DNA from: an uncultured Gammaproteobacteria bacterium
GTDB lineage: Bacteria; Pseudomonadota; Gammaproteobacteria; Steroidobacterales; UBA11654
Assembly: GCA_902553145.1 (NCBI GenBank)
Contig: CACDKD010000005.1
Coordinates: forward strand, 1 to 64,000
DNA length: 64,000 nucleotides
Reading direction: 5' to 3'
Shown piece by piece: positions 43,477 through 62,308 of the stretch. The translations under genes were made by a program, and so were the position numbers. The stretch's first letter is position 1. Each line of letters begins with the position of its first letter. The notes beneath the pieces were generated by a model. The model saw nothing but the letters and a program-made list of their open reading frames with translations, was not told the origin of the DNA and did no database searches.

Positions 43477-44309
43477 AAATAGCAAAATACCCATTCGCAG
43501 TTCTCTCCGCAGCCCTTTTTACAGTATTGCTGATGACTCCGGTTTCATCATTAACTAAATTAATCTGGCTAGCATCAGTTGATATGCCAGTGGGAATAAT
43601 CTCGTCATTAGAAGTAATCTTATTTGATTTTCAGAGAATGGGGATAGGTCTATATCTCCTTGTAATTATTGGGTTTACAATTGCTTTCTCTGCCGCTGGA
43701 TTAATCTCTAGATTCAGTCCACTGGGTGGAAAATATCTATATGCAATAGCTGGGGGGACTGCTATTTTTATGACATTGTTTTTGATTGTCGAATTGGTAT
43801 TTCAGTCAGAGTTAATAGCAGGAAACAAAACGATCATTGGAAAGATACTTCATTTTGGCGCAGGGTTCTTTGGAGGGTATTTCTTTTATTCCCTCATTTC
43901 ATCAGAAAGAAATTACACATTTATTATTAGATTTTTAGGTATTTTTTACGCCTATTTTTTATTGGGTTTAGTGCTTCAATGGATTTTTAATCCCATAAGC
44001 GCATCAGCTGATTTTGGCTTCGTATTTAATGAATTGGCAAGTGATGCACAAAATGCACTTTTGAGAGATTTTACATCCTTCTTTGTAGCCACTTTCATAT
44101 TTTCTATATTGGGGGCAATCACACTAAATCCAGCATGGTTTTTCTCGGCAGGAATAGTTTATTTTGGAGCAGGAATCTTCAACTTAATTGCTATTTATGC
44201 TCATGGAACAGGGTTCAATCAGATATTTATTTCTGAATTCATCTTAGGCGCTTGGCCAACTGCTCTGGCACTGACTATCATTATGAAAGAACAAAAAATA
44301 TCTAACTAG
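43473..44309 (+). CDS. Integral membrane protein of unknown function
   Basis: A 278-residue protein with about seven to eight hydrophobic segments (e.g. GIGLYLLVIIGFTIAFSAAG, YAIAGGTAIFMTLFLIVELV, GAGFFGGYFFYSLISS, IIRFLGIFYAYFLLGLVLQW). I do not recognise a family. It overlaps the sugar dehydrogenase stop by 4 nt (ATGA), so the two are translated together. An electron-transfer or anchoring partner for the dehydrogenase is possible but not shown; there are no clear heme or quinone motifs. Confidence 0.8.
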   Translation: MKIAKYPFAVLSAALFTVLLMTPVSSLTKLIWLASVDMPVGIISSLEVILFDFQRMGIGLYLLVIIGFTIAFSAAGLISRFSPLGGKYLYAIAGGTAIFMTLFLIVELVFQSELIAGNKTIIGKILHFGAGFFGGYFFYSLISSERNYTFIIRFLGIFYAYFLLGLVLQWIFNPISASADFGFVFNELASDAQNALLRDFTSFFVATFIFSILGAITLNPAWFFSAGIVYFGAGIFNLIAIYAHGTGFNQIFISEFILGAWPTALALTIIMKEQKISN

Positions 44310-44872
44310 ACAAATGATCGAGGTTTTCTTGAAAAGATCTCCTCAATCATTGGTATGAAATATTCTAGAGGCTTTTCTTTAAAATCCGGATCAAATGATT
44401 TTTGATCCCATTTTGAACAAAAATCTATGCATTCCTGATAATGAGGATGATCTTTGTGCTGATCTCTTAAATTTCTATCCTCACCATAATGGTGCATCCA
44501 ATAGTAGCCTTGAAATAATCCATGGTTCAGAACTATCCAATAATTTTTTTCACTGATATATGGTCTTAAAATAGCCGCAGAAGCCTGTGAATGATTAACT
44601 GGTGATATCACGTCACCTATATCGTGAAGCAATGCACATACAATTGTTTCTGTGTCTGCGCCATCTTGTTCTGCTCTTGTAGCCGTTTGTAGACAATGTT
44701 GAAGCCTACTGATTTGATAAGGGGAATCGCCATCCATCATTTTCATCCATTCCACGACTCTTTTGACTAAACTTCTTTCATTTTCTGAATCATGAATTGC
44801 GATAAGATCATAATCTTCCCTGGTTCCATGATCCATGGATGTGAATTTAACTTTCTCGTTCAACTTACTCAA
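44306..44872 (-). CDS. tmpB: HD-domain mixed-valent diiron oxygenase-like protein (TmpB/PhnZ type)
   Basis: A 188-residue HD-domain protein. Candidate metal ligands are His59 (RLQHCLQTATRAEQDGAD), His83-Asp84 (ALLHDIGD), His94 (PVNHSQASAAIL), His117 (VLNHGLFQGYYWMHH) and Asp156 (KWDQKSFDPDF). The 'QHCLQTATRAE.DGAD' and 'LFQGYY' patterns match the oxygenase subset of HD proteins (PhnZ, TmpB) rather than ordinary phosphohydrolases. Such enzymes cleave the C-P bond of 1-hydroxyphosphonates with O2. It starts at TTG overlapping the dioxygenase stop by 4 nt. The substrate assignment (hydroxylated trimethylaminoethylphosphonate, giving glycine betaine) comes from this pairing and is inferred. Confidence 0.68.
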   Translation of the reverse strand: MSKLNEKVKFTSMDHGTREDYDLIAIHDSENERSLVKRVVEWMKMMDGDSPYQISRLQHCLQTATRAEQDGADTETIVCALLHDIGDVISPVNHSQASAAILRPYISEKNYWIVLNHGLFQGYYWMHHYGEDRNLRDQHKDHPHYQECIDFCSKWDQKSFDPDFKEKPLEYFIPMIEEIFSRKPRSFV

Positions 44873-45951
44873 TTCTCTAAATTTTTCAAAAGGTATAGAT
44901 TGTTTTCTATATTATCCATTTCATAATATGCGTCTTGAAGATGTCGCTTTCCATCTGGTTTAAATTCTTCCCTGCCATGAAGAATACGATGAGCAGAAAC
45001 TAATAAAACTTGACCCGAATCAAGTCTGAATTTTGATTTGTATCTTTCGCTATTAATTCTATTGCATAATTCATGATAAGCCTTATAAAAAGAGGCGACA
45101 TTTTTCTCCCTCGGATCTATCATTTGCATCAATTGATTTGAGTATCTGAAACCAGTAACTTCTTTTTCTGCATTCATTCTGATCATTGGCTCATTTGCGT
45201 AAGTCTCGTTTTCTTCATCAAATTCTCTGAAAGGAACTGCAAAGCTACTCAAAACATCAAAATACTCGGGGCAATCACTTCTCAAATCTCGAAGGACTGC
45301 ATAGCCATCAACTATGGTTGATCTTCCTCCTTCGCACTCGTTAACGAGCATATGAAGAGCCTGAGCACTGGGTGGCCATGTGTAACTTGCAAAATCATTA
45401 TGGGGAGGAAGCTCTAGCGATGTGTGTGCAATATTATAAACATGACCATCCACAGATACATTGTGAATACGCTCAAACAATACTTCCCTGATGGGTCCAA
45501 GACGAGGGGCAAGCTCTTCGAGTGAATTTGAAATGGTAGGCGCGTTCTTAATGACTATTACACCATTGGCAATAAAATTAGAGATTGCGTCTATGGCAGT
45601 ATCATTTATTTTAAGAAAATCATTCCAGTCAAAGTAATTTGGCATGAAATCATTGGTCCAAAGCACTTTTTCGGGCTTTCTGGATTTGTCTAAAGATTCT
45701 ATTTCTTCAAAGCATATAGAGGTTTCATGATCATCGGGCCAAACTATATGAATATGGCTTTCATTTACTTCAACTTTTTTTGGCTTTAGATCAGCAGGGA
45801 CGGAATTAAGCAAAAATCTCTTTTCTTGTGTCTCCTTTACTCTGCAGTCATTGCAAGGGCAATTATCTCGCATCCAAAGATGCGGTAAATCATACTCTGA
45901 ATTATCATTGCTTATGATTCTTAATGAGGTTTCATTAATTTCAAAATCCAT
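44869..45951 (-). CDS. tmpA: Gamma-butyrobetaine-hydroxylase-like Fe(II)/2-oxoglutarate dioxygenase (TmpA type)
   Basis: A 360-residue protein with the two-domain layout of gamma-butyrobetaine hydroxylase. The N-terminal zinc domain has Cys31/Cys33/Cys36 (RDNCPCNDCR) and His75. The TauD-like catalytic domain has His184-x-Asp186 (LPPHNDFASYTWPP) and His325 (HRILHGREEF), with Arg in GKRHLQDAYYEMD for 2-oxoglutarate. BBOX (carnitine synthesis) and TmpA (2-trimethylaminoethylphosphonate 1-hydroxylase) share this fold; both act on a trimethylammonium substrate. The coupled HD oxygenase-like gene downstream argues for TmpA. It is divergent from an MHS transporter across a 35-bp gap. AGGG precedes the ATG. 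Confidence 0.75.
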   Translation of the reverse strand: MDFEINETSLRIISNDNSEYDLPHLWMRDNCPCNDCRVKETQEKRFLLNSVPADLKPKKVEVNESHIHIVWPDDHETSICFEEIESLDKSRKPEKVLWTNDFMPNYFDWNDFLKINDTAIDAISNFIANGVIVIKNAPTISNSLEELAPRLGPIREVLFERIHNVSVDGHVYNIAHTSLELPPHNDFASYTWPPSAQALHMLVNECEGGRSTIVDGYAVLRDLRSDCPEYFDVLSSFAVPFREFDEENETYANEPMIRMNAEKEVTGFRYSNQLMQMIDPREKNVASFYKAYHELCNRINSERYKSKFRLDSGQVLLVSAHRILHGREEFKPDGKRHLQDAYYEMDNIENNLYLLKNLEN

Positions 45952-45973
45952 TTTTACCCTCCTACCAATAATT

Positions 45974-45979
45974 TATAAT
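45974..45979 (+). promoter_or_regulatory. Possible -10 element in the 35-bp divergent tmpA/transporter gap
   Basis: TATAAT lies only 8 nt before the transporter ATG at 45987, implying a very short leader or use of the downstream in-frame ATG at 46029. The whole divergent control region is 35 bp, so the two promoters must overlap with coding sequence or with each other. Confidence 0.35.
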
Positions 45980-45986
45980 ACAAAGC

Positions 45987-47318
45987 ATGAATAATGAAAG
46001 CTTAGAAAAAAATAATATTAATTCCAATATGAGAAAAGTTGCTCTTACGGCTCTAGCAGGAACAAGTATAGAGTGGTATGACTTCTTTCTATACGGCGCA
46101 GCAGCAGCTCTTATTTTTCCAACAGCTTTCTTTGGGGAGGTTCCTCCTACGACGGCATTGATACTTTCATTGCTGACTTTTGCTGCTGGTTTTATAGCAA
46201 GGCCCATTGGTGGAATTATCTTTGGTCATTTCGGTGACAAAATAGGGAGAAAGAAAACACTCATCAGTGCTTTAATGCTAATGGGCATCTCATCTACATT
46301 GATAGGCTTACTCCCAACATATGCAATGATTGGCGCTCTGGCACCAATCCTTCTTACCGCATTAAGATTTGCTCAAGGATTGGCTATTGGCGGCCAGTGG
46401 GGTGGCGCTATGCTTTTAGTCACTGAAAGTGCTCCTGCAAACCAAAGGGGGTACTACGGGGCTTTTGCGCAAGCCGGTGCCCCAATTGGAGTGATATTGG
46501 CTAACTTGGCACTCATTATTACAAGTGCTTTGGTTTCCGATGAATTTTTCAATACTTGGGGCTGGAGAATCCCCTTTCTAGCAAGCGCTGTTTTAATCCT
46601 TGTCAGTATGTATATTCAGTTGAACCTTGAAGACACAAAGGCATTCAAAGAATTAGCAATGCATAGAAATGAGAATCAGGATGATGATCAAACAGCAATT
46701 CAGAAATCGCCCATCATTGAAGCAGTAAGGAAATACCCTAAAAGAATCATGCTTGCTGCTGGAGCTTTTATAAATATTCAGGTTACTTTTTATATTCTTA
46801 TCGCTTTTTTATTGGCTTATGGAGTGCAGAGCGCGAAGATGGCTAGAGATGATATGCTTACAGCGGTTTTAATTGCATCAGCAATAATGGTGCCAATGCA
46901 ATTTTTATTTTCATCATATTCTGATAGGAACGGAAGAAGAGGCATTTTCATGCTCGGAGCAATATTATCGGGTCTATGGGCCTTCGCAATTTTTCCCTTA
47001 GTCGATACCGGAAATTTCTGGTTAATCACGCTAGCTGTATCGGGAGGTATGGTTTTTCTGGCCATGATGTATGGACCACAAGCGGCCTTTTTTACTGAAT
47101 TATTTAGCACCGAAGTTAGATATTCAGGAGCAACGCTTGGTTATCAATTTGGGGCAATCATTGGTGGAGCCTTTGCTCCAACCATCGCTGTAAAGTTATG
47201 GACCGAATTAGATATTTTCTGGGTCTCGGTCTATATGTCATGCTCAGCACTGCTCACTTTGCTCTCTGTGATGGCTTTAACAGAAACCTACCAGACTGAC
47301 TTAAATAAGACTCAATAA
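45987..47318 (+). CDS. MFS transporter, metabolite:H+ symporter (MHS) family
   Basis: A 443-residue, 12-segment carrier. The start ALTALAGTSIEWYDFFLYGA and the loop GHFGDKIGRKKTLISALMLM are MHS-family markers (ProP, ShiA, KgtP, citrate carriers). TM-rich sequence continues with QGLAIGGQWGGAMLLVTESA and ELFSTEVRYSGATLGYQFGA. ProP-type members carry betaine and proline, so a trimethylammonium substrate fits the divergent TmpA/TmpB-like pair, but specificity cannot be read from sequence. The true start could be ATG 46029. Convergent with the malonyl-CoA decarboxylase gene. Confidence 0.88.
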   Translation: MNNESLEKNNINSNMRKVALTALAGTSIEWYDFFLYGAAAALIFPTAFFGEVPPTTALILSLLTFAAGFIARPIGGIIFGHFGDKIGRKKTLISALMLMGISSTLIGLLPTYAMIGALAPILLTALRFAQGLAIGGQWGGAMLLVTESAPANQRGYYGAFAQAGAPIGVILANLALIITSALVSDEFFNTWGWRIPFLASAVLILVSMYIQLNLEDTKAFKELAMHRNENQDDDQTAIQKSPIIEAVRKYPKRIMLAAGAFINIQVTFYILIAFLLAYGVQSAKMARDDMLTAVLIASAIMVPMQFLFSSYSDRNGRRGIFMLGAILSGLWAFAIFPLVDTGNFWLITLAVSGGMVFLAMMYGPQAAFFTELFSTEVRYSGATLGYQFGAIIGGAFAPTIAVKLWTELDIFWVSVYMSCSALLTLLSVMALTETYQTDLNKTQ

Positions 47319-47337: not shown

Positions 47338-48588
47338 CTATTGAATCTGGAGTTTCTTCAATAGAGTTTTAACTTTGTCTGAATGTTGTACTTTCTTTGT
47401 TTTAAAAAACAACTCGTGATTCTTTTCCAATGAATCAGGATCATATAGATAATTAACCATCATGCCTTTTGATTGATATATTCCTTTTAGGGACATATCA
47501 GCATTTAAATTTATCCTCGCTAAAGTAGCGCCATTGCCTAAATGGAATCTAGCTACAGGATCATTGGGAAATCCATCTTCTCTATTCGAATACAAAAGAT
47601 AAGTCATGGCTTGCTTCATCAGACTTTCTTCATCCAGATCTTCATCAATGGATTGTTCTTTAAGCCATTTTGTAAAATCAGGAGCCGGAGAAAGTGTTAC
47701 AAATTTTTTCAGCGCTTCGTTCTTACGTTTTAACTTGTAGACAACTTCTTTGATCAGAAAATTACCAAATGAAATCCCTGATAAGCCATCTTGACAACTT
47801 GAAATAGAATAAAAAACTGCAGTACTTATATCTTCTTCAGACATAACGCTTCGATCAATCTTTATCACCTCATCAATTTTCCTTGGCATATTGTTGGTAA
47901 AAGCAACTTCTACGAAGATAAGAGGCTCATTAGCTATAAGTGGATGAAAGAAAGCAAAACATCTTCTATCTTCTGGCTCTAATCTAGATCGAAGTTCACT
48001 CCATGAATTGATTTCATGTACGGCTTCATATGCAATTATTTTTTCCAAGATACTTGCTGGTGTAGCCCAATCTATTTCTTTTAAAACCAAAAAAGATGGA
48101 TTGAACCAATGTTTGAATAGATTTAGGAGGGCTACATCGAAGAATTCCAAGTTTGGATTATTTTTCTCGAGAGATCTAATTCTCTCTCTGAGTTTTACCA
48201 ATTTATAAGTTCCTTCAGGAACCGTATTCAGTCTTCTGAAAAGTTCAACCCACTGGGGTTCTGAAGATTGAGTAATTTTTTCAAGATTTTCTTGTGTTTT
48301 ATTCTTGGTATATTCTATCGATGATTTTGATAAAGCGTCGGAATCTATGTCATATTTCTCTAATAGAGAATCGAAAAAATCGATGAATTGTTTATCGCTA
48401 AGTTCTTCTATCAGGCTAAAAAGATTTTCAGCATATACCAATGAGGAAACTTCTCCACTTTTTGACATGACTGATTCAACAGCTTTATCAATATCTTTCG
48501 GAAGATTGCTAAAATCTTTCGAGCGAAAATACCGGCTTTTTAATGGTCCGCTCTTGATTGAAGAAATTAAATTTTGGAATAAACTCAT
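47338..48588 (-). CDS. Malonyl-CoA decarboxylase
   Basis: A 416-residue enzyme converting malonyl-CoA to acetyl-CoA and CO2. A helical N-terminal domain (to ~150) precedes the GNAT-like catalytic domain, with EDRRCFAFFHPLIANEPLIF near 205, FYSISSCQDGLSGISFGNFL near 255, FVTLSPAPDFTKWL near 295, and VARFHLGNGATLARINLNAD near 345, whose His is the expected catalytic base. SLKGIYQSKGMMVNYLYD closes the family pattern. No malonyl-CoA synthetase or malonate transporter is adjacent. No clear Shine-Dalgarno precedes the ATG. Confidence 0.93.
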   Translation of the reverse strand: MSLFQNLISSIKSGPLKSRYFRSKDFSNLPKDIDKAVESVMSKSGEVSSLVYAENLFSLIEELSDKQFIDFFDSLLEKYDIDSDALSKSSIEYTKNKTQENLEKITQSSEPQWVELFRRLNTVPEGTYKLVKLRERIRSLEKNNPNLEFFDVALLNLFKHWFNPSFLVLKEIDWATPASILEKIIAYEAVHEINSWSELRSRLEPEDRRCFAFFHPLIANEPLIFVEVAFTNNMPRKIDEVIKIDRSVMSEEDISTAVFYSISSCQDGLSGISFGNFLIKEVVYKLKRKNEALKKFVTLSPAPDFTKWLKEQSIDEDLDEESLMKQAMTYLLYSNREDGFPNDPVARFHLGNGATLARINLNADMSLKGIYQSKGMMVNYLYDPDSLEKNHELFFKTKKVQHSDKVKTLLKKLQIQ

Positions 48589-50023: not shown

Positions 50024-52024
50024 TCAACTTGATTTGATTAGCTCAATATCCTCAGGCTTTACAAGTTCTGTTCCCAGTCCATCTAGCAAGGGTCCAAGAT
50101 ATTTTGCATACGGCTTCCATCTGTCCATTCCGGCCTTATTGATCGGTTTTCTCACCTGTTCTGAACTTGCAGTCCTTACTGATCTGTCGGTCTCATAAAA
50201 AGTGATGCAAGATTCCTCAAAAGGCAATTCCAAAAAATTCAACATTTTCACTACTTGGCCCTCTAGATCATCAATAATGTCTTCATTATTCACTCTCAAA
50301 ATCTTATTTGGCAAAACCTGATCCCAGTGATTCATTAATTTGATGTAACTTTTATAGTAACTGCCTGCTTCAGTCAATCCATAAGTGAATTCTTGGCCTT
50401 GAGCAAATAACTGCTTAAACATACTAAAGCAGCAATCTAGGGGATATCGTCTCGCATCGATAATTTTTGCGTTTGGCATGATTAAATGAATCAATCCAAT
50501 GTGTCTGAAATTATTAGGCATCTTATCGGTAAATCTTGGTGCTTCATTTCGATGCATGCTCGTATCACTTATAAACTTCTCCCCCATTGCTATTCTCTTT
50601 TCTAGAGATAAATTTTCCATGCTTTTTGGATAGTTTCCTTCCTTGCCATAAATATCATCGCCTCTAAGACTTTGCGCCATTGACAGAATATTTGGAAGCT
50701 CGAGCGTTCCATCAATCATTGAATGAGAGGCCAATATTTGCTCAATTAATGTTGAGCCAGCCCTCGGCAGACCTAGGATGAATATTGGATCTTTTGTCTC
50801 ATGTCCACCCTGGCCATGTTTTTCAAAAAATAATTCATCGCATACATCGATCTGAGCCTGCAACTCCTTGTCCATTCTTTCAATGGAATATTTGCTTTGC
50901 TTGTTTTTAATCTTATTCCCAGAATCAAGATGAAAAAAAGCTTCATCGTATTCACCAACTGCTTCACAACCTTGGGCCAATGCAAAATGAAAATAGGCTT
51001 TATCTCGCATAGTTAAATCAACTCTTTGAAGCTGCTCTCTCATAATGTTTAGTTCATTCTTACTAAATTCATACGTTTTTAAGTTTGCGAGTGAGAAAAA
51101 AGCTTCACCATGATCTTGTTTTACTTGGTAGGCAGTTTGATAACTAGTAATCGCTCTATCTGACTCTCCCAATGTTTTCTGTGCATGACCCTTCGATGTA
51201 AGAATACTGAAGTTATAGGGATTCTTTTTAAGAATGTCATCGAATAGATCTATTGCACCCTTGTGATCACCGTTTTGCATGATCTCGCTTGCTTTTTGTG
51301 CTTGATATGAGAGATTTTCAGGAAATTTTTCGCACAGTATATTCACCTGCTCCATAGTCTTTGCAAATTTCTGCTTTTTTCTAAGAATCATTGCATACTT
51401 CATTCTGAGCTCCCCATCACTGGGGCTTAATTTGACTGCACTCTCGAGCAGGAATTCTGCGTCATCAAAGTAACCAAGTCGATCGGCAATGTCTGATAAC
51501 AATGACATTGCATATGTATTTGTTGGGTACTGTTTAAGAAATTCTCGGCATTTTTCTTCAGCAATACCTAATTTCCCTTCATTGAGAATCTGACTGATGA
51601 AGAGCAGAGTGTTTGGCATTGTCTCAAGGGTATTCATTTGCATGTAAGCGTGATCCGCTGCAGGCTTATTCTCATTCTTTTTAAAATAAGAATACAGAGC
51701 CTTCCAGGATGATGGTAAAGCTGGATTCAATTCACAGGCTTGTCTGTAATGCTTGATTGAATCTTCTTCATTTCCACTGTCTCTATTTAAATGACCCAAC
51801 TCTTGATAAGCTCTGCCCATATCTGGGGCATTAGTTAATAGACTCTCAATGTATTTTTTTGAATCATCGTAATTCTTTAAATATCTTGAACTGACTGCTG
51901 CCAAATATAGGCTATCAATATGATTTTGATCTTTTTTGAGATTGGATTTCAGCAATCTCATTGCTTCGATATTGTCGCCTCTTTTTATAGCATCAGCTGC
52001 TTTGGATGTGTCTATTTGTGTCAT
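50024..52024 (-). CDS. TPR-repeat sulfotransferase
   Basis: A 666-residue protein. Residues ~1-400 are tandem tetratricopeptide repeats (e.g. MGRAYQELGHLNRDSGNEED, AEFLLESAVKLSPSDGELRM). The C-terminal ~260 residues are a PAPS-dependent sulfotransferase domain, with the 5'-phosphosulfate loop DPIFILGLPRAGSTLIEQIL near 415, ASHSMIDGTLELPNI, PNNFRHIGLIHLIMPNAKII near 535, and RYPLDCCFSMFKQLFAQGQE as the 3'-phosphate-binding segment. No signal peptide. Acceptor unknown. Such fusions are common in marine bacteria. Confidence 0.92.
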   Translation of the reverse strand: MTQIDTSKAADAIKRGDNIEAMRLLKSNLKKDQNHIDSLYLAAVSSRYLKNYDDSKKYIESLLTNAPDMGRAYQELGHLNRDSGNEEDSIKHYRQACELNPALPSSWKALYSYFKKNENKPAADHAYMQMNTLETMPNTLLFISQILNEGKLGIAEEKCREFLKQYPTNTYAMSLLSDIADRLGYFDDAEFLLESAVKLSPSDGELRMKYAMILRKKQKFAKTMEQVNILCEKFPENLSYQAQKASEIMQNGDHKGAIDLFDDILKKNPYNFSILTSKGHAQKTLGESDRAITSYQTAYQVKQDHGEAFFSLANLKTYEFSKNELNIMREQLQRVDLTMRDKAYFHFALAQGCEAVGEYDEAFFHLDSGNKIKNKQSKYSIERMDKELQAQIDVCDELFFEKHGQGGHETKDPIFILGLPRAGSTLIEQILASHSMIDGTLELPNILSMAQSLRGDDIYGKEGNYPKSMENLSLEKRIAMGEKFISDTSMHRNEAPRFTDKMPNNFRHIGLIHLIMPNAKIIDARRYPLDCCFSMFKQLFAQGQEFTYGLTEAGSYYKSYIKLMNHWDQVLPNKILRVNNEDIIDDLEGQVVKMLNFLELPFEESCITFYETDRSVRTASSEQVRKPINKAGMDRWKPYAKYLGPLLDGLGTELVKPEDIELIKSS

Positions 52025-52067
52025 CTATTGTTTCAATGAAAAATAAGTAAATGTTCTTATCCAATTA

Positions 52068-52092
52068 AAAAGGGAGCCTAAGCTCCCTTCTT
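52068..52092 (-). terminator. Rho-independent terminator of the TonB receptor gene
   Basis: On the minus strand AAGGGAGC-TTAG-GCTCCCTT forms an 8-bp stem with a 4-nt loop and is followed directly by TTTAATT, 24 nt after the receptor stop codon. Confidence 0.85.
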
Positions 52093-52113
52093 AAATTTTA
52101 GCTTATCTAAAAA

Positions 52114-54852: not shown

Positions 54853-56448
54853 TTGAATAATCACTTGACTGTAATTAAAGATGATATAGATTGTCTGAAA
54901 GCTATTTCTTTCAAAAAAATATGTCTCACAAAAGAACTTTCTCAACGCATTATGCTTAAAAGTATCGACTATAGAAGATTCTTCATTTCTCTATTTCTTG
55001 TCTCGGCTTTTGTAGGTATAACTTTGGTCAATCTTGATTCAGCAAGCAATCTTTTCAATAGCACGCAATCATTTATAGCAAATAACTTTGGGTGGCTTAT
55101 CATTTTATGTGCAAATGGTTTTCTGGTTTTCTGCATATGGATGGCAATCAGTCGTTTTGGAACGATTAGATTGGGCGGAGCCGATGCCAAGCCAGAATTT
55201 AACTATATAAATTGGATCGCCATGCTATTCAGTGCGGGACTGGGCATAGGAGTAATATTCTACTCCGTGGCAGAACCAATATTACATCTCAATTCATCGG
55301 CACTATTTGAGGATGGGGCTTCCTTTAATCAAAGAGCCACATTATCAATGAATCTGACATATCTTCATTGGGGATTTCATGCTTGGGCCATATATGGCGT
55401 TGTGGGATTGTGCTTTGCTTATTTTGCATTCAACCTTGGAAGGCCTTTTAGGGTCAGCTCATTCTTTCTTGATGTCGGGCTGCAGAGTGCATGGAGTCGA
55501 GTGATTGTCGATGTCTTTGCTATTCTAGCGACCGTCTTTGGTATTGCCACATCATTGGGGTTAGGAGCTACCCAGATAAGCACTGGACTTGAATATGTAG
55601 GCATTGCAAGCTCAACGCTCATTGGCACATTCTGGATTATAATCTTCATTACAATGCTGGGACTCATTAGTGTGGTTTTGGGTTTGAATGCTGGAATAAA
55701 AAGACTCTCACAATTCAACATGATTTTATGCGGATTCTTTTTGATCACGATATTTTTTACAGGTCCTACAGGATTTATACTTGATGGATTCGTAGAAAAT
55801 ATTGGCACTTATCTTCAAAACTTTATCAATTTGTCTAGCAACGTAGATGCCTATAGAGACACGGAATGGCAAAATGCTTGGACGCTCTTCTACTACTGTT
55901 GGTGGTTTGCATGGTCACCTTTTGTGGGTCTTTTTATTGCTAGAATCTCTTATGGAAGAACGATTAAAGAATTCATCCTTGGGGTTGTTTTATTGCCGTC
56001 ATTGATAGTTTTCATATGGTTGAGTGTTTTCGGAAATGCTGCAATATATCAAGAGTTTACGTCAGCTGGGTCACTTGCAGATGTCATCAATCAAGATATT
56101 TCAGCATCCCTTTTCGTGTTCTTAGAGCAATACCCTGGTGCAAGCATTCTAATGGTCGTTTCTTTGGTTAACATAGTTACATTTTTTGTAACCTCCTCTG
56201 ATTCAGGAGCATTGGTTAGCGCCATGATGACTTCATCAAATCAACTTGATTCCAGAGAGGATGCTCCTGCATTATTTTCGAGGATAGTTTGGGCACTTAT
56301 GCTTGGCATAATAGCCATTATTCTCCTATCTGGAGGAGGATTATCAGCGCTTCAGACATCGGTTATTGCAACCGGTCTGCCCTTTGCATTAATTGCCTGC
56401 ATTGCTGCTAGAAACTTATATAAAAAATTAAAGATTGATTCCAATTAA
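54853..56448 (+). CDS. BCCT-family transporter (betaine/carnitine/choline type)
   Basis: A 531-residue, 12-segment carrier. NYINWIAMLFSAGLGIGVIF (the glycine stretch of TM3), WGFHAWAIYGVVGLCFAYFA, and WTLFYYCWWFAWSPFVGLFI with IARISYGRTIKEFILGV are the hallmark BCCT sequences. The Trp-rich segment in TM8 forms the aromatic cage for the quaternary ammonium group. The start is TTG supported by a strong AGGAGG 4 nt upstream. It opens the corrinoid-methyltransferase operon, so a methylated amine such as glycine betaine is the likely cargo. Confidence 0.95.
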   Translation: MNNHLTVIKDDIDCLKAISFKKICLTKELSQRIMLKSIDYRRFFISLFLVSAFVGITLVNLDSASNLFNSTQSFIANNFGWLIILCANGFLVFCIWMAISRFGTIRLGGADAKPEFNYINWIAMLFSAGLGIGVIFYSVAEPILHLNSSALFEDGASFNQRATLSMNLTYLHWGFHAWAIYGVVGLCFAYFAFNLGRPFRVSSFFLDVGLQSAWSRVIVDVFAILATVFGIATSLGLGATQISTGLEYVGIASSTLIGTFWIIIFITMLGLISVVLGLNAGIKRLSQFNMILCGFFLITIFFTGPTGFILDGFVENIGTYLQNFINLSSNVDAYRDTEWQNAWTLFYYCWWFAWSPFVGLFIARISYGRTIKEFILGVVLLPSLIVFIWLSVFGNAAIYQEFTSAGSLADVINQDISASLFVFLEQYPGASILMVVSLVNIVTFFVTSSDSGALVSAMMTSSNQLDSREDAPALFSRIVWALMLGIIAIILLSGGGLSALQTSVIATGLPFALIACIAARNLYKKLKIDSN

Positions 56449-56524: not shown

Positions 56525-59119
56525 ATGGCCTCTAAGTTTCCAAGCGAGGCTGAAGTCGTCATAGTTGGCGTTGGCGGCATTGTTGGATCGATGATCGCAT
56601 ACTGGCTTACAGAACTTGGTCAGAAAAACATAGTGGGATTGGAAAAATCAAGTGTGATTCCCTCAGATATGGGATCTACTGCTCATGCTTCAGACTTTGT
56701 CTACAACACAACACACGATAAACTTGGAAACTGGTCGACTGCCTTCAGTCGTAATTTTTACGATGACAATGGCTTCTTCTTGAAAAAAGGAGGCTTAGAA
56801 ATCTGTCGAAAAGACGATGATGTTCTCTGGGAAGAGCTGAAACGAAAGGTGTCATCAGGCAAGGCTTTTGGAACCAATGTAAGATTAATTTCTGCCGCTG
56901 AAGCCAAAGAAAAATTTCCTTTATTAGACGAAGATTCGATACGAGGAGCAATGTGGGATCCGGATGCCGGTCTTGTAACGCCTCGATCACAGGATGTGGT
57001 TCGGTTTGCCGTTGAGCATGCAAAAGAAAAAGGTGCACTTAAAACATATGCCGATACTCCTGCAACAGGCTTTGAGATTGAGAATGGACGAATTACTGCC
57101 GTAAAAACAGAGAGAGGAACAATCAAAACTGACAAAGTCGTCATCGCATCTGGAATCTGGGGGCCTTTGGTTGGAGAGATGGCTGGTGTTTCGGTTCCAT
57201 TAATGCCAGTGGAGCATCCATTGTTGTTCTTTGGTCCGCTGCCTGAAGCACAAGGTGCTGAGGATTTTCTTGTTTATCCATTGATGAGAGACCAAGGAAA
57301 CTCTGCTTATGTCCGAGATACAGGCAAACTTCATGGTGGCATGCTTGAATGGGGTTTTTACGAAGACAAAGAGCCTAGGCTTGTTGATGCCGAGGACATT
57401 GGTAATCCTGAAAAGACTATGATGTCTGATTCGATGAGGTATCTTGATCTCGAAGAAGTTGCTGAGCCTCTAGAAAAAGCTTTTGAAACAACGCCGATAC
57501 TCGCTGAACTGGGCTGGGATGAAAGAAGTTCTTTTAATGGACTGCTTTCTGTAACACCCGATGGTGGTTCTTTAATTGGTGAAAGCCCAGAAATCAGAGG
57601 CTTTTGGTTATGTGAAGCGGTTTGGGTGAAAGACGGTCCCGGTTGTGCCAGACTCTGTGCTGAATGGATGACCAATGGCAAAACACAGATGGACATACAC
57701 TCTTTTGATATTGCCAGATTTTATCCTGCACAGAAGGAAAAAGCTTTTGTCAAATCAAGGTCTTTTGAAAATGCACAAACCATATACACTCCCCCCGTCC
57801 ATCCAAAGGAACCCTATATCAGCAGTCGAGAATTATACGTCAGCCCTTTTTATGCAAGAGAAAAAGAACTGGGCGGACACTTTGAAAATGAGATTGGAGG
57901 ATGGGAACGAGCATTTGCCTATGAGAGCAACATGGAAAAGCTGCATAATTACATGCAAGAGGTTCCGATTAGAGAAAACGAATGGGACAGAAGGCATGTG
58001 CCATATGAAATTGCCAATGCAGAACACTTAGCAATGAGCGATTCTGCTGGGATGATCAATCTATCCCATTTTGCGATCGTTGATGTCGAGGGTCCCGATG
58101 CAGAGCGGATGCTAGAAGACCTTTCGGTTGCCAAAGTTGGTGGCGATACGCCTCAAGATAAAATTATCTACACCAATTTCTTAGATGAAGATGGTGGTGT
58201 GCATGCAGACCTGACCATCTCGCGTTTGGGATCTGATCGTTATCGAGTTGTCACCGGCGGTGCCGATGGAAATCGTGATTGGGTCACGATGCGTAATTAC
58301 CGAGATGACATGGGATTTAATGCCGACGTGAAGATTCGTACCCATGATATGGCGACTTTAGGATTATGGGGCCCTAAAGCAAAGGATGCCTTGGGTCACT
58401 TTATTGATCCAAATGAGATCAGCATCGAGAATTTTCCTTTTGTAGAGGCAAAACATCTCACCCTCAATTTATCTGGAGGGAAAGCAATTGATGTTTGGGC
58501 AGCCCGAATTTCATATGTTGGAGAGAGTGGTTGGGAAATCTATTTGAATAATGATAGTGAGGATGGTCTAGCTCTTTATGATTCTCTTCTTGAAGTTGGA
58601 GTTGTTCCAGTAGGCATAGAAACTTACGCCAATAGTCGACGGCTTGAAAAAAGCTTCAGACTTCAAGGGGCTGACTTATTGACCGAATACAATGCTTGTG
58701 AATCTGCGGTTCAAAGACCCAAGGTTAAAGAAGCGGATTTTCATGGCAAAAAAGCACACCTTGTCCATCGAGAAGAAGAGCCAAGTGCAGTTCTATGCAC
58801 AATGACCTTGGATAGTTTGGAAGTCTCTGGCGGTGGTTCGCGTTACCCTGTTGGTATCTCACCAATCATTGATCCTGATTCAGGTGAAGTTCCAACCGAT
58901 AGCAAAGGCCGAAGATCCTACAGCACCAGCATGTCTTACTGTCCATCAATTAAGAAACATGTCGTGATGGGTTATCTTCCTAATGAGATTGCTGTCCCTG
59001 GGAAGCAGCTTACATTGGAATACTTTAATGAAGATGGTGATGGAATGTATCCAATGACTGTTCAGATAGTTGGCAAGGGCTGTCTATACGATCCGAAAAA
59101 TGAAAAGGTTCGTTCATAA
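56525..59119 (+). CDS. Dimethylglycine/sarcosine-dehydrogenase-like flavoprotein fused to a GcvT-type domain
   Basis: An 864-residue enzyme. Residues ~8-400 form a DAO-type FAD domain: VVIVGVGGIVGSMIAYWL, then MGSTAHASDFV with His54 at the place of the histidine that holds FAD covalently in dimethylglycine dehydrogenase. A bridging FAO_M-like part follows. Residues ~480-855 are an aminomethyltransferase (GcvT) folate domain: SAGMINLSHFAIVDVEGPDA, MATLGLWGPKAKDAL and ARISYVGESGWEIYL. It would oxidise an N-methyl amine and pass the C1 unit to tetrahydrofolate. It lies downstream of the BCCT gene and directly before the mttB-like gene. Confidence 0.9.
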   Translation: MASKFPSEAEVVIVGVGGIVGSMIAYWLTELGQKNIVGLEKSSVIPSDMGSTAHASDFVYNTTHDKLGNWSTAFSRNFYDDNGFFLKKGGLEICRKDDDVLWEELKRKVSSGKAFGTNVRLISAAEAKEKFPLLDEDSIRGAMWDPDAGLVTPRSQDVVRFAVEHAKEKGALKTYADTPATGFEIENGRITAVKTERGTIKTDKVVIASGIWGPLVGEMAGVSVPLMPVEHPLLFFGPLPEAQGAEDFLVYPLMRDQGNSAYVRDTGKLHGGMLEWGFYEDKEPRLVDAEDIGNPEKTMMSDSMRYLDLEEVAEPLEKAFETTPILAELGWDERSSFNGLLSVTPDGGSLIGESPEIRGFWLCEAVWVKDGPGCARLCAEWMTNGKTQMDIHSFDIARFYPAQKEKAFVKSRSFENAQTIYTPPVHPKEPYISSRELYVSPFYAREKELGGHFENEIGGWERAFAYESNMEKLHNYMQEVPIRENEWDRRHVPYEIANAEHLAMSDSAGMINLSHFAIVDVEGPDAERMLEDLSVAKVGGDTPQDKIIYTNFLDEDGGVHADLTISRLGSDRYRVVTGGADGNRDWVTMRNYRDDMGFNADVKIRTHDMATLGLWGPKAKDALGHFIDPNEISIENFPFVEAKHLTLNLSGGKAIDVWAARISYVGESGWEIYLNNDSEDGLALYDSLLEVGVVPVGIETYANSRRLEKSFRLQGADLLTEYNACESAVQRPKVKEADFHGKKAHLVHREEEPSAVLCTMTLDSLEVSGGGSRYPVGISPIIDPDSGEVPTDSKGRRSYSTSMSYCPSIKKHVVMGYLPNEIAVPGKQLTLEYFNEDGDGMYPMTVQIVGKGCLYDPKNEKVRS

Positions 59120-59142
59120 ATTGATTGGAGCGAGGTGAATGT

Positions 59143-60684
59143 ATGCCTGAAAGAAAACGAAGAAGAAAAGCAGGCGGAAGAAGAAAGAAATTAGCGGCCA
59201 GAGAACAAGGTGCGGTTAATTATCGACCATATATTGAACGCAAAATTCCATATTTTGAAATATTGGATGAAGAAGGCCTTGCATCAATTGAAAAAAATGC
59301 AGACATCATACTTGAGGAGATTGGAATTGAGTTTCGAGATTTTCCAAGAGCTGTAGAATTATTCAAGAATGCAGGAGCAGATATTGATGGTGAAAGAGTC
59401 CGCTTCCCTCAAGGTTTATGTCGGGAGTTGATCCAATCAAGCGCGCCAAGTGAATATACACAACATGCAAGAAATCCAAAAAATAATGTAGTCATAGGTG
59501 GTCGAAATACCGTACTTGTTCCAGCTTACGGGCCTCCATTTGTAAGAGATTTAGACAAAGGTCGAAGATACGCGACACTTGAGGATTTTCAGAATTTCGT
59601 CAAATTAGCCTACATGAGTCCAAATCTTCACCATTCCGGTGGGACCATATGTGAGCCCGTTGATGTCCCTGTCAATAAACGTCATTTCGACATGATCTAC
59701 AGTCACATCAAATACAGTGATAAACCTTTTATGGGGTCTGTTACACATCCCGAAAGAGCTGAAGACACGGTCGCAATGGCAAAACTGGTTTTTGGAGAAA
59801 GCTTTGTACAGGAGAATACTGTTTTAACGAGCTTGATAAATGCGAATTCACCTTTAACGTTTGATGAGACAATGCTTGGTGCTGCCACGGTTTATGCTGA
59901 AAATAATCAAGCAACGATGATTTCTCCATTTATTTTGGCTGGTGCAATGTCGCCGGTGACCATAGCAGGCACAGTCACACAGATTCTGGCAGAAGCTCTT
60001 GCAGGAATGGCATATATTCAGCTTGTTAAACCAGGTGCTCCAGTCATTTTTGGTACTTTTGCTAGTGCGGTCTCAATGCAAACAGGAGCACCCACATTTG
60101 GTACACCAGAGCCAAGCCATGTGATGACAATTGTAGGTTCACTGGCTAGAAGATTGGGCGTGCCATTCAGAAGTGGTGGCGGATTGTGTGCATCGAAAAT
60201 ACCGGATGCGCAAGCTGCATATGAGTCAGCAAATACATTGCAAGCATCTGCCTTAGCTGGGGTCAATTTTATGTTGCATACAGCTGGTTGGCTAGAGGGC
60301 GGTCTTGCCATGGGCTATGAGAAATTCATCATGGATGCAGATCAGGCGGGAATGCTCGCCGTGCTTCTTGATGGAGTTGAATTGTCTGAAAATTCCATGG
60401 CAATGGATGCGTTCAGAGAAATTGGACCAGGTGGACACTTCCTTGGTGCAGCTCATACTCAAGCTAATTTTGAATCAGCTTTTTATCGTTCTGAAATTGC
60501 CGATAATAATAGCTTTGAGCAATGGGAAGAAGAAGGTAGCATGGACGCTGCAATGCGTGCCAATTCAAAATGGAAGCAACTGCTGAAAGAATACGAAGCG
60601 CCAGAATTGGATCCTGCAATAGATGAGGCTTTACTTGAGTTTATAGCTAAGAGAAAATCTGAATTTGAAGACAGAGATTATTGA
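59143..60684 (+). CDS. Trimethylamine-methyltransferase-family protein, non-pyrrolysine (MtgB-like)
   Basis: About 513 residues of the MttB superfamily. A basic N-terminal tail (RKRRRKAGGRRKK) precedes the TIM barrel: IGIEFRDFPRAVELFKNAGA, VPAYGPPFVRDLDKGRRYAT, FVKLAYMSPNLHHSGGTICE, NANSPLTFDETMLGAATVYA, PFILAGAMSPVTIAGTVTQI and FGTPEPSHVMTIVGSLARRL. The frame has no internal amber codon, so it is not a pyrrolysine enzyme; the known relatives without pyrrolysine demethylate quaternary amines such as glycine betaine (MtgB). The track start (TTG 59125) is upstream of GAGGTG; I prefer ATG 59143. The corrinoid partner gene follows after 3 nt. Confidence 0.93.
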   Translation: MPERKRRRKAGGRRKKLAAREQGAVNYRPYIERKIPYFEILDEEGLASIEKNADIILEEIGIEFRDFPRAVELFKNAGADIDGERVRFPQGLCRELIQSSAPSEYTQHARNPKNNVVIGGRNTVLVPAYGPPFVRDLDKGRRYATLEDFQNFVKLAYMSPNLHHSGGTICEPVDVPVNKRHFDMIYSHIKYSDKPFMGSVTHPERAEDTVAMAKLVFGESFVQENTVLTSLINANSPLTFDETMLGAATVYAENNQATMISPFILAGAMSPVTIAGTVTQILAEALAGMAYIQLVKPGAPVIFGTFASAVSMQTGAPTFGTPEPSHVMTIVGSLARRLGVPFRSGGGLCASKIPDAQAAYESANTLQASALAGVNFMLHTAGWLEGGLAMGYEKFIMDADQAGMLAVLLDGVELSENSMAMDAFREIGPGGHFLGAAHTQANFESAFYRSEIADNNSFEQWEEEGSMDAAMRANSKWKQLLKEYEAPELDPAIDEALLEFIAKRKSEFEDRDY

Positions 60685-60687
60685 TTT

Positions 60688-61398
60688 ATGAGCGACTCAT
60701 ATATAGAAAATGAAGAAGATATTATCTTAGCCGACTTATCGGATGATGAGCTCGTCGAGCAAATGCATGATGACTTGTATGACGGCCTAAAGGAAGAAAT
60801 AGAAGAAGGCACAGATATCTTATTATCCCGTGGATGGTCTGCAGAAAAGGTTCTCAACGAGGCGCTTGTAGCCGGAATGACCATTGTTGGAATAGATTTT
60901 AGAGACGGGATCCTTTTTGTTCCAGAAGTTTTACTGGCGGCTAATGCCATGAAAGGTGGAATGGAGATCCTTAAGCCTTTATTGGCTGAAACAGGTGCCA
61001 AGCCTGTTGGCTCAATGGTAATTGGGACTGTTAAAGGAGACATTCATGATATTGGAAAGAACCTTGTTGGCATGATGTGCGAAGGCGCGGGTTTCGAGGT
61101 CGTCGACATTGGCATCAATAATTCAGTGGAAGATTATTTTGAGGCACTGGAAAAACATAAACCGGACATATTGGGAATGTCTGCCCTCCTCACCACAACA
61201 ATGCCATATATGAAAGTCGTCATAGATGAAATGGTAAACAAGGGAATACGAGATGACTATATTGTATTGGTTGGAGGTGCTCCATTGAATGAAGAATTTG
61301 GAGAGGCTGTTGGTGCAGATCGATACTGTAGAGATTCGGCCGAAGCTGCTGCTGTTGCGATGGCAATGGTGACAGAACGTCAGGAAAGCTCCGCTTAA
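60688..61398 (+). CDS. Corrinoid (cobalamin-binding) methyl-carrier protein
   Basis: A 236-residue protein of the MtgC/MttC type. The N-terminal cap (ALVAGMTIVGIDFRDGILFV, LLAANAMKGGMEILKPLL) precedes a B12-binding Rossmann domain with GDIHDIGKN (His120 is the lower axial ligand), MSALLTTTMPYMK and VLVGGAPLNEEFGEAVGADR, i.e. the DxHxxG...SxL...GG signature. It accepts the methyl group from the MttB-like enzyme. An acidic tail of about 25 residues at the start is an addition to the common form. It starts 3 nt after the methyltransferase stop. Confidence 0.95.
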   Translation: MSDSYIENEEDIILADLSDDELVEQMHDDLYDGLKEEIEEGTDILLSRGWSAEKVLNEALVAGMTIVGIDFRDGILFVPEVLLAANAMKGGMEILKPLLAETGAKPVGSMVIGTVKGDIHDIGKNLVGMMCEGAGFEVVDIGINNSVEDYFEALEKHKPDILGMSALLTTTMPYMKVVIDEMVNKGIRDDYIVLVGGAPLNEEFGEAVGADRYCRDSAEAAAVAMAMVTERQESSA

Positions 61399-61450: not shown

Positions 61451-62308
61451 ATGAGTGATTTAAACCAAATATCAGAAACAGTTGCTAAACGAATAAGACA
61501 AGATCTTCAGAAATCTTATATGGAAATTATTCCAGTACCAGGCATTGAGGATAAACTGGACTCTCTCCCCTCGGACATGTATTTAGCGGTCACCTGCTCT
61601 CCTACAAAAGGAGTGGATGAAACCTTGGAGCTTAGTGAAAAGCTCATCGAAAGAGGCTTTAAGGTAACACCGCATATCGCATCGAAATGCGTTAGTGGTG
61701 AAAAACACCTTGAAGCGATCATAAAAAAACTTGATGAATTGGGCATTAAAAGCATTTTTGTGCCTGGCGGCGATAGACCAGAACCAATGGGTGATTTCAA
61801 TAATGCCCTTGATCTTCTCAAAGCTTTAAAGAAGCTTGGACATAACTTAAACAAAATCGGTATGGCTGCACATCCTGAGGGTCACCCAGATGTGAGCGAT
61901 GAAATCCTAATGGAAGCGCTTGAAGAAAAAAAAGATCTTGCGGATTTTATTGTCACTCAAATGTGTTTCGATGCAGAGATTTTGAATGATTGGATGAATC
62001 AGATTCATAAGAAAGGTATAGAACTTCCTGTTTGGGTAGGGCTGCCTGGCGTAATCGAACGAGGTCGTCTACTGAAAACCTCTCTTAGAATAGGTGTTGG
62101 TGATTCCTTGCGATTCTTAAGAAAGAAATCGCAAGTTGCAACAGAACTGATGAAATCTAGTATTTATAATCCGGATGATTTGGTAAGGGATATTACTGAA
62201 CAAATTGATATCAACGATTCCAAGCTTGCCGGCTACCATATTTATTGCTTCAACCAGATTGAAACAACTGAAAAATGGCGCACCGAAAGAATCTCTGCTC
62301 TTAATTAA
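61451..62308 (+). CDS. Methylenetetrahydrofolate-reductase-like protein
   Basis: A 285-residue TIM-barrel protein of the MTHFR superfamily: FKVTPHIASKCVSGEKHLEA near residue 75, IKSIFVPGGDRPEPMGDFNN near 100, IGMAAHPEGHPDVSDEILME near 137, DFIVTQMCFDAEILNDWMNQ near 175, and LPVWVGLPGVIERGRLLKTS. The order VxGGD, AAHPEGH, TQMCFD is the MTHFR pattern. In this operon it would work in the oxidative direction, turning methyl-H4folate from demethylation into methylene-H4folate; it may need an electron acceptor different from NADH. It is not MetF-like enough to assume methionine synthesis. Confidence 0.88.
   Translation: MSDLNQISETVAKRIRQDLQKSYMEIIPVPGIEDKLDSLPSDMYLAVTCSPTKGVDETLELSEKLIERGFKVTPHIASKCVSGEKHLEAIIKKLDELGIKSIFVPGGDRPEPMGDFNNALDLLKALKKLGHNLNKIGMAAHPEGHPDVSDEILMEALEEKKDLADFIVTQMCFDAEILNDWMNQIHKKGIELPVWVGLPGVIERGRLLKTSLRIGVGDSLRFLRKKSQVATELMKSSIYNPDDLVRDITEQIDINDSKLAGYHIYCFNQIETTEKWRTERISALN

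Follow-up and report, generated by a model that had tools for sequence, protein, structure and literature searches.

The gene pair examined here, a GBBH-like Fe(II)/2OG oxygenase followed by an HD-domain protein, raises the question of whether its products degrade a phosphonate, as TmpA and TmpB do, or act on another compound. We addressed this question in a window of 64,000 nucleotides, the whole stretch of DNA that was analysed, from an uncultured gammaproteobacterium. The host belongs to SAR86: its genome, 1.44 Mb and incomplete (85%), has SAR86-cluster records as its closest relatives. The locus comprises three genes:

44306..44872, minus strand: HD-domain protein, 188 aa from a TTG start, of a family separate from TmpB/PhnZ
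44869..45951, minus strand: GBBH-like Fe(II)/2OG oxygenase, 360 aa
45987..47318, plus strand: MHS-type MFS symporter, 443 aa, divergent from the pair

The first-pass annotation read the pair as TmpA/TmpB and the symporter as a possible new importer of its substrate. The gene positions that it gave are correct, as are the 35-bp gap (45952-45986) between the oxygenase gene and the divergent MHS gene and the 4-nt overlap between the oxygenase and HD genes, provided that the HD gene starts at the TTG at 44872. A second TTG lies three codons on, at 44863, and its use as the start abolishes the overlap; several HD orthologues have an ATG start near the position of this second codon. All 13 SAR86 loci compared (L002-L014) show the order oxygenase-then-HD, despite their differing surroundings. 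The pairing is not due to chance and has been retained across these loci.

The oxygenase

The oxygenase matches the Pfam families TauD (120 bits) and GBBH-like_N (54 bits). Its Fe ligands (His184/Asp186/His325) and its Cys3-His zinc ligands (Cys31/Cys33/Cys36/His75) are invariant in the SAR86 orthologues, in agreement with the initial description of a GBBH-like dioxygenase carrying both sites. It scores below the cut-offs of both the GBBH model TIGR02409 (236 bits; cut-off 414.75) and the TmpA model NF049936 (223.4 bits; cut-off 400). According to the TmpA/TmpB reading, a divergent oxygenase would hydroxylate 2-trimethylaminoethylphosphonate (TMAEP) or a related compound; cleavage of the C-P bond by the HD protein would then yield glycine betaine and phosphate. 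The two-gene architecture and the likely end product match that system. However, the score of the oxygenase does not, and a residue comparison reveals that it has the Cys3-His zinc site that TmpA has lost, which argues against TmpA identity.

The residues expected at the anion site point in the same direction. TmpA contacts the phosphonate through N187, N287 and R288, and the anion contacts of BBOX are N191 and N293 (PMC9296572). The window oxygenase has both Asn residues (N173 and N272), and Gln273 replaces Arg288 of TmpA; this combination is shared by four SAR86 orthologues, G554 and G666. The Arg288 position is occupied by Arg in nine of nine TmpA proteins compared, and by Phe, Trp or Ala in GBBH-type proteins. 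Judged by these residues, the anion site is BBOX-like, with both Asn and no Arg288.

The aromatic cage of the window oxygenase is F159/H163/H176/Y342, read from sequence alone; the AlphaFold model of this protein, built on a shallow alignment, has a mean pLDDT of 52 and was set aside. The F/H/H/Y cage is invariant across the SAR86/G554/G666 clade and differs from those of TmpA (Y/F/F-or-Y/Y), human BBOX (Y/W/Y/Y) and bacterial GBBH (F/F/Y/Y), with His at the positions of BBOX W181 and Y194. Since two of the four cage positions are His, a trimethylammonium substrate is not assured, and these two residues speak more strongly than anything else in the sequence against a trimethylammonium site of the usual kind. 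They would fit a different head group. The same module might act on another quaternary or charged amine, neither gamma-butyrobetaine nor a phosphonate, and yield betaine or some other compound that the demethylation operon uses. The two BBOX anion-site Asn residues that are kept count against such a substrate.

In the oxygenase tree, the SAR86 and G554 proteins form a clade of their own (100/100) on a long branch, outside the GBBH clades. Because the branches of this tree are long, the exact placement of this clade is unsure, a weakness shared by the AU tests, which reject a single clade of SAR86/G554 with TmpA (p=0.0019). The idea that the enzyme groups with TmpA is thus contradicted, and the accompanying idea that it falls outside the true GBBHs is borne out. 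A single clade of the SAR86 enzymes with the other HD-paired oxygenases gave p=0.058 with five SAR86 rows only, and was rejected (p=0.011) once G554 and further GBBH rows were included. Oxygenases have therefore probably come to pair with the HD family on more than one occasion.

The HD-domain protein

The HD protein scores far below the cut-offs of the TmpB model NF049941 (38.5 bits; cut-off 300), the Phn-HD model TIGR03276 (43.2 bits; cut-off 214.6) and the PhnZ1 model (30.1 bits; cut-off 300), and a generic HD domain is its only Pfam match. We aligned 62 members of its family with seven TmpB/Phn-HD proteins. The diiron ligands H59, H83, D84, H94, H117 and D156 align with the six of the TmpB/PhnZ set, H...HD...H...H...D (PMC8177086), and all six are kept throughout the alignment. 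The PhnZ/TmpB-type ligand pattern recognized at first is therefore genuine and characterizes the whole family.

The residues around the metal site are different. The YxxE substrate loop of TmpB and PhnZ (PMC8177086) is absent from the 62 family members, which have Tyr or Phe at the Glu position; the corresponding segment of the window protein is GDSPYQISRLQH. The HDxGH His of TmpB/PhnZ is mostly Asp in the family (Asp87 in the window), the HVxxKR Lys is an invariant Gln (Gln121 in the window), and the LQGG segment is found in none of the aligned family members; Arg136 is invariant in the family. In the PhnZ structures, the conserved HDxGH His, the HVxxKR Lys and the LQGG segment are ascribed a role in phosphonate binding. 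In the tree, a very long branch with 100/100 support splits the family from TmpB/Phn-HD, and the HD proteins of SAR86, G554, G408 and Pseudohongiella fall into a single clade (100/95). With a separate clade and different second-sphere residues, the ligand pattern does not by itself identify a phosphonate oxygenase, contrary to the first assumption. Altogether, both proteins lie outside TmpA/TmpB by score, tree and residues, and the phosphonate-contact residues are missing in both, so that neither the proposed identity nor a phosphonate substrate is upheld.

The fold, on the other hand, is where the HD protein comes nearest to PhnZ and TmpB, and this speaks for the TmpA/TmpB reading. When the family profile was compared with solved structures, PhnZ and TmpB were the only confident matches. 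The AlphaFold model of the HD protein has a pLDDT of 92, and all 10 matches below E=0.001 in a fold search with this model are PhnZ or TmpB (TM about 0.66). MIOX comes next, with a probability of 1.0, and other HD proteins are weaker (E>0.02). The predicted fold is closest to PhnZ/TmpB and then to MIOX. The protein lies outside TmpB/Phn-HD, against the first expectation; in line with that expectation, it does not resemble a plain phosphohydrolase. It is probably a diiron oxygenase, in a clade separate from PhnZ/TmpB. We know of no enzyme of this clade that has been assayed and, to our knowledge, the open papers searched describe neither the clade nor its residues and betaine context. The family was detected in 59 of the 399 Pseudomonadota genomes sampled, and in 24 of the 321 genomes of the window's class.

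These data also bear on another interpretation, namely that an ordinary gamma-butyrobetaine hydroxylase is encoded next to an HD protein that serves a betaine operon in some unrelated way, as a phosphohydrolase or an accessory factor. The generic Pfam match of the HD protein is consistent with this interpretation. However, the oxygenase is placed outside the GBBH clades, and the fold search puts the PhnZ/TmpB oxygenases first, far ahead of hydrolases.

HD genes and Fe/2OG oxygenases in other genomes

Outside SAR86, Fe/2OG oxygenases from unrelated families (GBBH-like, PhyH, TauD and IPNS-like) recur as neighbors of HD-family members. The HD gene adjoins a GBBH-like oxygenase gene in G376, G147, G308, G554, G544 and G651, a PhyH-type one in L016, L146, L151, L155 and L156, and an IPNS-like one in L038. 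In G544 and G651 the oxygenase gene is divergent from the HD gene, about 0.5 kb off, and not co-transcribed with it; in G666 the two genes are not adjacent. Of about 75 non-SAR86 loci, 12 have an Fe/2OG oxygenase gene beside the HD gene, compared with 1 of 363 other nearby genes; because the loci are partly non-independent and the detection seeds were drawn from the same loci, the probability calculated for this difference is indicative only. Together with the fold matches, this repeated pairing substantiates the two-step logic first proposed for the locus, in which an Fe/2OG hydroxylase works with an HD oxygenase.

HD genes are also found in betaine operons and elsewhere with no adjacent 2OG oxygenase gene. 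The whole Pseudohongiella genome contains the HD gene but yielded no GBBH-like oxygenase, and G408 likewise has the HD gene and no hydroxylase. Such solitary HD genes would suit an ordinary GBBH with an HD protein of unrelated function; the repeated association with several unrelated oxygenase families argues against it, and we consider this interpretation unlikely. The same solitary genes are hard to explain if hydroxylated TMAEP is the HD substrate.

Two of the paired oxygenases favor the TmpA/TmpB reading. Those of G308 and G544 exceed the TmpA cut-off of 400 bits (422 and 403 bits, respectively), branch beside TmpA and retain Arg288. The HD partner in G308 reaches only 45 bits with the TmpB model. 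Since one protein of this pair passes and the other fails, names taken from databases can be wrong either way. Moreover, the oxygenases paired with the HD family show three different cages, which indicates that the HD partner is compatible with several substrates and adds to the case for a different amine in SAR86.

Glycine betaine genes in the window and its relatives

Elsewhere in the window, about 9-17 kb from the pair and outside its operon, lies a group of genes related to glycine betaine:

54853..56448, plus strand: BCCT-family betaine/choline-type transporter (TIGR00842, 435.6 bits; cut-off 407.55)
56525..59119, plus strand: FAD/GcvT-type dimethylglycine/sarcosine dehydrogenase-like (DMGDH-like) protein
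59125..60684, plus strand: MttB-superfamily methyltransferase, sharing 78% identity with the MttB from the pair-containing operon in G554
60688..61398, plus strand: cognate corrinoid protein; best model MtgC (glycine betaine-specific), 194 bits, below the cut-off of 370
61451..62308, plus strand: methylenetetrahydrofolate reductase (MTHFR)-like protein, assigned by eye, with no NCBIfam match at the threshold used

The MttB-superfamily gene has no in-frame stop and is therefore not the pyrrolysine TMA enzyme. In G554 the pair itself is part of such an operon, with the order MttB-corrinoid-...-MTHFR-methyltransferase-RACo-oxygenase-HD-DMGDH-like-sox, beside a GbdR-like regulator; the labels MTHFR, methyltransferase and sox were assigned partly by eye. 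The MttB and corrinoid proteins of the window are 78-82% identical to their G554 counterparts, and a homologue of the window BCCT transporter is encoded near the G554 pair. Within SAR86, L012 encodes an 84% homologue of the window DMGDH-like protein 4 kb from the pair. HD genes in further genomes show a similar arrangement: RACo-HD-DMGDH-like-sox in Pseudohongiella, the HD gene before a DMGDH-like gene in G408, and the HD gene between sox-like genes and an MttB homologue in G008. Thus, the pair or the HD gene lies in or near operons of the MttB-type betaine demethylation kind (MtgB/MtgC, RACo, DMGDH, sox) in SAR86, G554, G408, Pseudohongiella and G008, and the link to betaine drawn in the first-pass annotation is corroborated by these homologues. 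As far as we know, the described MttB-type pathway includes neither an HD nor a GBBH-like gene. The context singles out no candidate compound for the reading in which the substrate is a different amine, and we regard that reading as rather unlikely, albeit plausible.

A proposed route to glycine betaine

Carnitine and phosphonate genes were looked for in the genomes that carry the pair. No carnitine dehydrogenase was found in the window genome, in eight other pair-bearing SAR86 genomes or in G554, so carnitine, if it is the product, would have to be converted further in some other way. BKACE is present in G554 and in three of these nine SAR86 genomes, and one Pseudohongiella genome has carnitine dehydrogenase, BKACE and the HD gene. 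No PhnD-type phosphonate/phosphite binding protein was found in the nine pair-bearing SAR86 genomes, a further point against TmpA/TmpB function, which we judge quite unlikely. As the genomes are incomplete, single absences mean little and a consistent absence across nine means more.

We tentatively favor, at somewhat less than even confidence, an oxidative module of two steps in which a carboxylated quaternary amine is turned into glycine betaine for the demethylation pathway nearby, with gamma-butyrobetaine/carnitine as the leading candidate from the residues and gene context. The GBBH-like enzyme would hydroxylate this small amine, in the leading case converting gamma-butyrobetaine to carnitine, and the HD diiron oxygenase would use O2 to split the product of that step and set glycine betaine free. 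In the carnitine case the products would be glycine betaine and glycolate, which balances as the PhnZ reaction does. Glycine betaine would then be demethylated by the MttB-type methyltransferase, the corrinoid protein and DMGDH-type enzymes. A route from gamma-butyrobetaine through carnitine to betaine fits the BBOX-like anion site, the lack of a carnitine dehydrogenase and the hydroxylase-free HD genes; the HD genes of Pseudohongiella and G408 would be explained if their substrate, carnitine, can be imported directly. Four observations speak against this reading: the two His residues in the cage, the distance between the betaine genes and the pair in the window, the separation of the two genes in G666, and the Pseudohongiella genome that has carnitine dehydrogenase and BKACE besides the HD gene. 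The sequence data show the pair and its conservation, the metal ligands, the fold, the separate clade, the lack of phosphonate residues and the betaine context; we infer from them, as probable at best, that the HD protein acts as an oxygenase, which compound is used, that a C-C bond is broken and that betaine is formed. The more specific proposal that the HD protein is a carnitine-cleaving oxygenase (carnitine + O2 -> glycine betaine + glycolate), the first of a large C-C-breaking HD clade whose members work with different Fe/2OG hydroxylases, and the basis of a dehydrogenase-free route to glycine betaine from gamma-butyrobetaine or carnitine in SAR86, seems quite unlikely. We know of no precedent for this cleavage. 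The open literature searched, of limited coverage, contained no description of an HD protein in carnitine or betaine catabolism.

The combination of a hydroxylase with an HD oxygenase is itself already known from PhnY/PhnZ and TmpA/TmpB. The window pair resembles TmpA/TmpB of Leisingera caerulea in having a GBBH-like oxygenase gene followed by an HD gene, in the HD ligands and fold and in the likely betaine product, but differs in its zinc site, its betaine-demethylation context and the lack of a PhnD-type importer. PhnY/PhnZ, which acts on 2-aminoethylphosphonate, and Phn-HD (TIGR03276) share the HD-oxygenase fold, the six ligands and the pairing with a 2OG hydroxylase, whereas the window HD protein lacks YxxE, the His/Lys and LQGG, and its partner is GBBH-like. 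BBOX and GBBH (TIGR02409) have the same zinc N-domain, Fe and 2OG ligands and two anion-site Asn residues; unlike them, the window oxygenase has His at W181 and Y194 and belongs to its own long-branch clade. MIOX is likewise an HD-domain diiron oxygenase with a matching fold, and it performs C-C cleavage, as proposed for the window protein, although the two show no sequence match even by profile and 12% identity over the fold. A 2020 review counts three known HD-domain oxygenases, MIOX, PhnZ and TmpB (PMC8177086). The clade described here keeps the diiron site and recurs by several Fe/2OG hydroxylases, which makes it a good place to seek a further reaction. If the proposal is true, the SAR86 pair would form a link between marine quaternary amines and one-carbon metabolism. 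In any case, not every hydroxylase-HD pair in ocean data should be taken as a sign of phosphonate, and thus phosphorus, use.

The MHS carrier and other neighbors of the pair

The MHS protein scores 399 bits with the metabolite/H+ symporter model, 345 with the shikimate transporter model and 243 with ProP, below every curated cut-off. Among the SAR86 loci L002-L014, its gene adjoins the pair in L002-L004, the window-type subclade, and in no others. As this adjacency is not conserved, we rejected the MHS protein as a dedicated importer, and the suggestion of a new importer is left without support.

A malonyl-CoA decarboxylase gene lies near the pair in two arrangements, that of L012/L013 and that of the window. 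Its presence suggested a C3-C4 cleavage of carnitine to malonate; shared regional ancestry explains it equally well.

Homologues of the window's HD protein, which belongs to a clade (the HD family) separate from TmpB, PhnZ and Phn-HD, were also found beside other oxygenases. One cluster (G308, L137, C2:52500-65500) contains a TmpA-scoring oxygenase and an HD-family partner, together with an additional GBBH-like gene, a choline-type ABC binding protein, BKACE and a carnitine dehydrogenase scoring 413.7 bits against a cut-off of 414. In another genome (G008:C3, L054/L104), a GBBH-like oxygenase scores 470 bits with the TmpA model and yet retains the zinc site; its gene lies immediately upstream of that for a Phn-HD protein, which at 168 bits is under the TmpB cut-off.

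At five loci (L146, L151, L155, L156 and L016) the HD-family gene immediately adjoins a PhyH-type Fe/2OG oxygenase gene. Their surroundings include, by eye, a ureidoglycolate lyase-like gene at L146 and a glycerate kinase-like one at L151.

In another set of SAR86-type genomes, distinct from those with the pair, a protein of the HD family (L025-L036, L039, L140; 46-48% identical) is encoded in an unrelated context, with no GBBH-like oxygenase gene adjoining it. G666 encodes, on contig C2 (L186), an oxygenase that falls in the clade of the window's enzyme, is intact and 55% identical, and likewise has the F/H/H/Y aromatic cage; its gene does not adjoin that genome's HD gene, which is on C1.

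A malonyl-CoA decarboxylase gene lies a few genes or less from the pair in two distinct SAR86 gene arrangements:

Window, 47338-48588, malonyl-CoA decarboxylase
L012, 12841-14094, malonyl-CoA decarboxylase
L013, 12847-14097, malonyl-CoA decarboxylase

The part of the window that separates the pair from the betaine genes holds a TPR-sulfotransferase gene adjoining a TonB-dependent receptor gene (50024-54687). Their homologues (47% and 53-58%; L171, 2-3683) adjoin the corresponding region in G554, which has the oxygenase-HD pair inside a glycine-betaine demethylation operon, and are followed there by a BCCT transporter.
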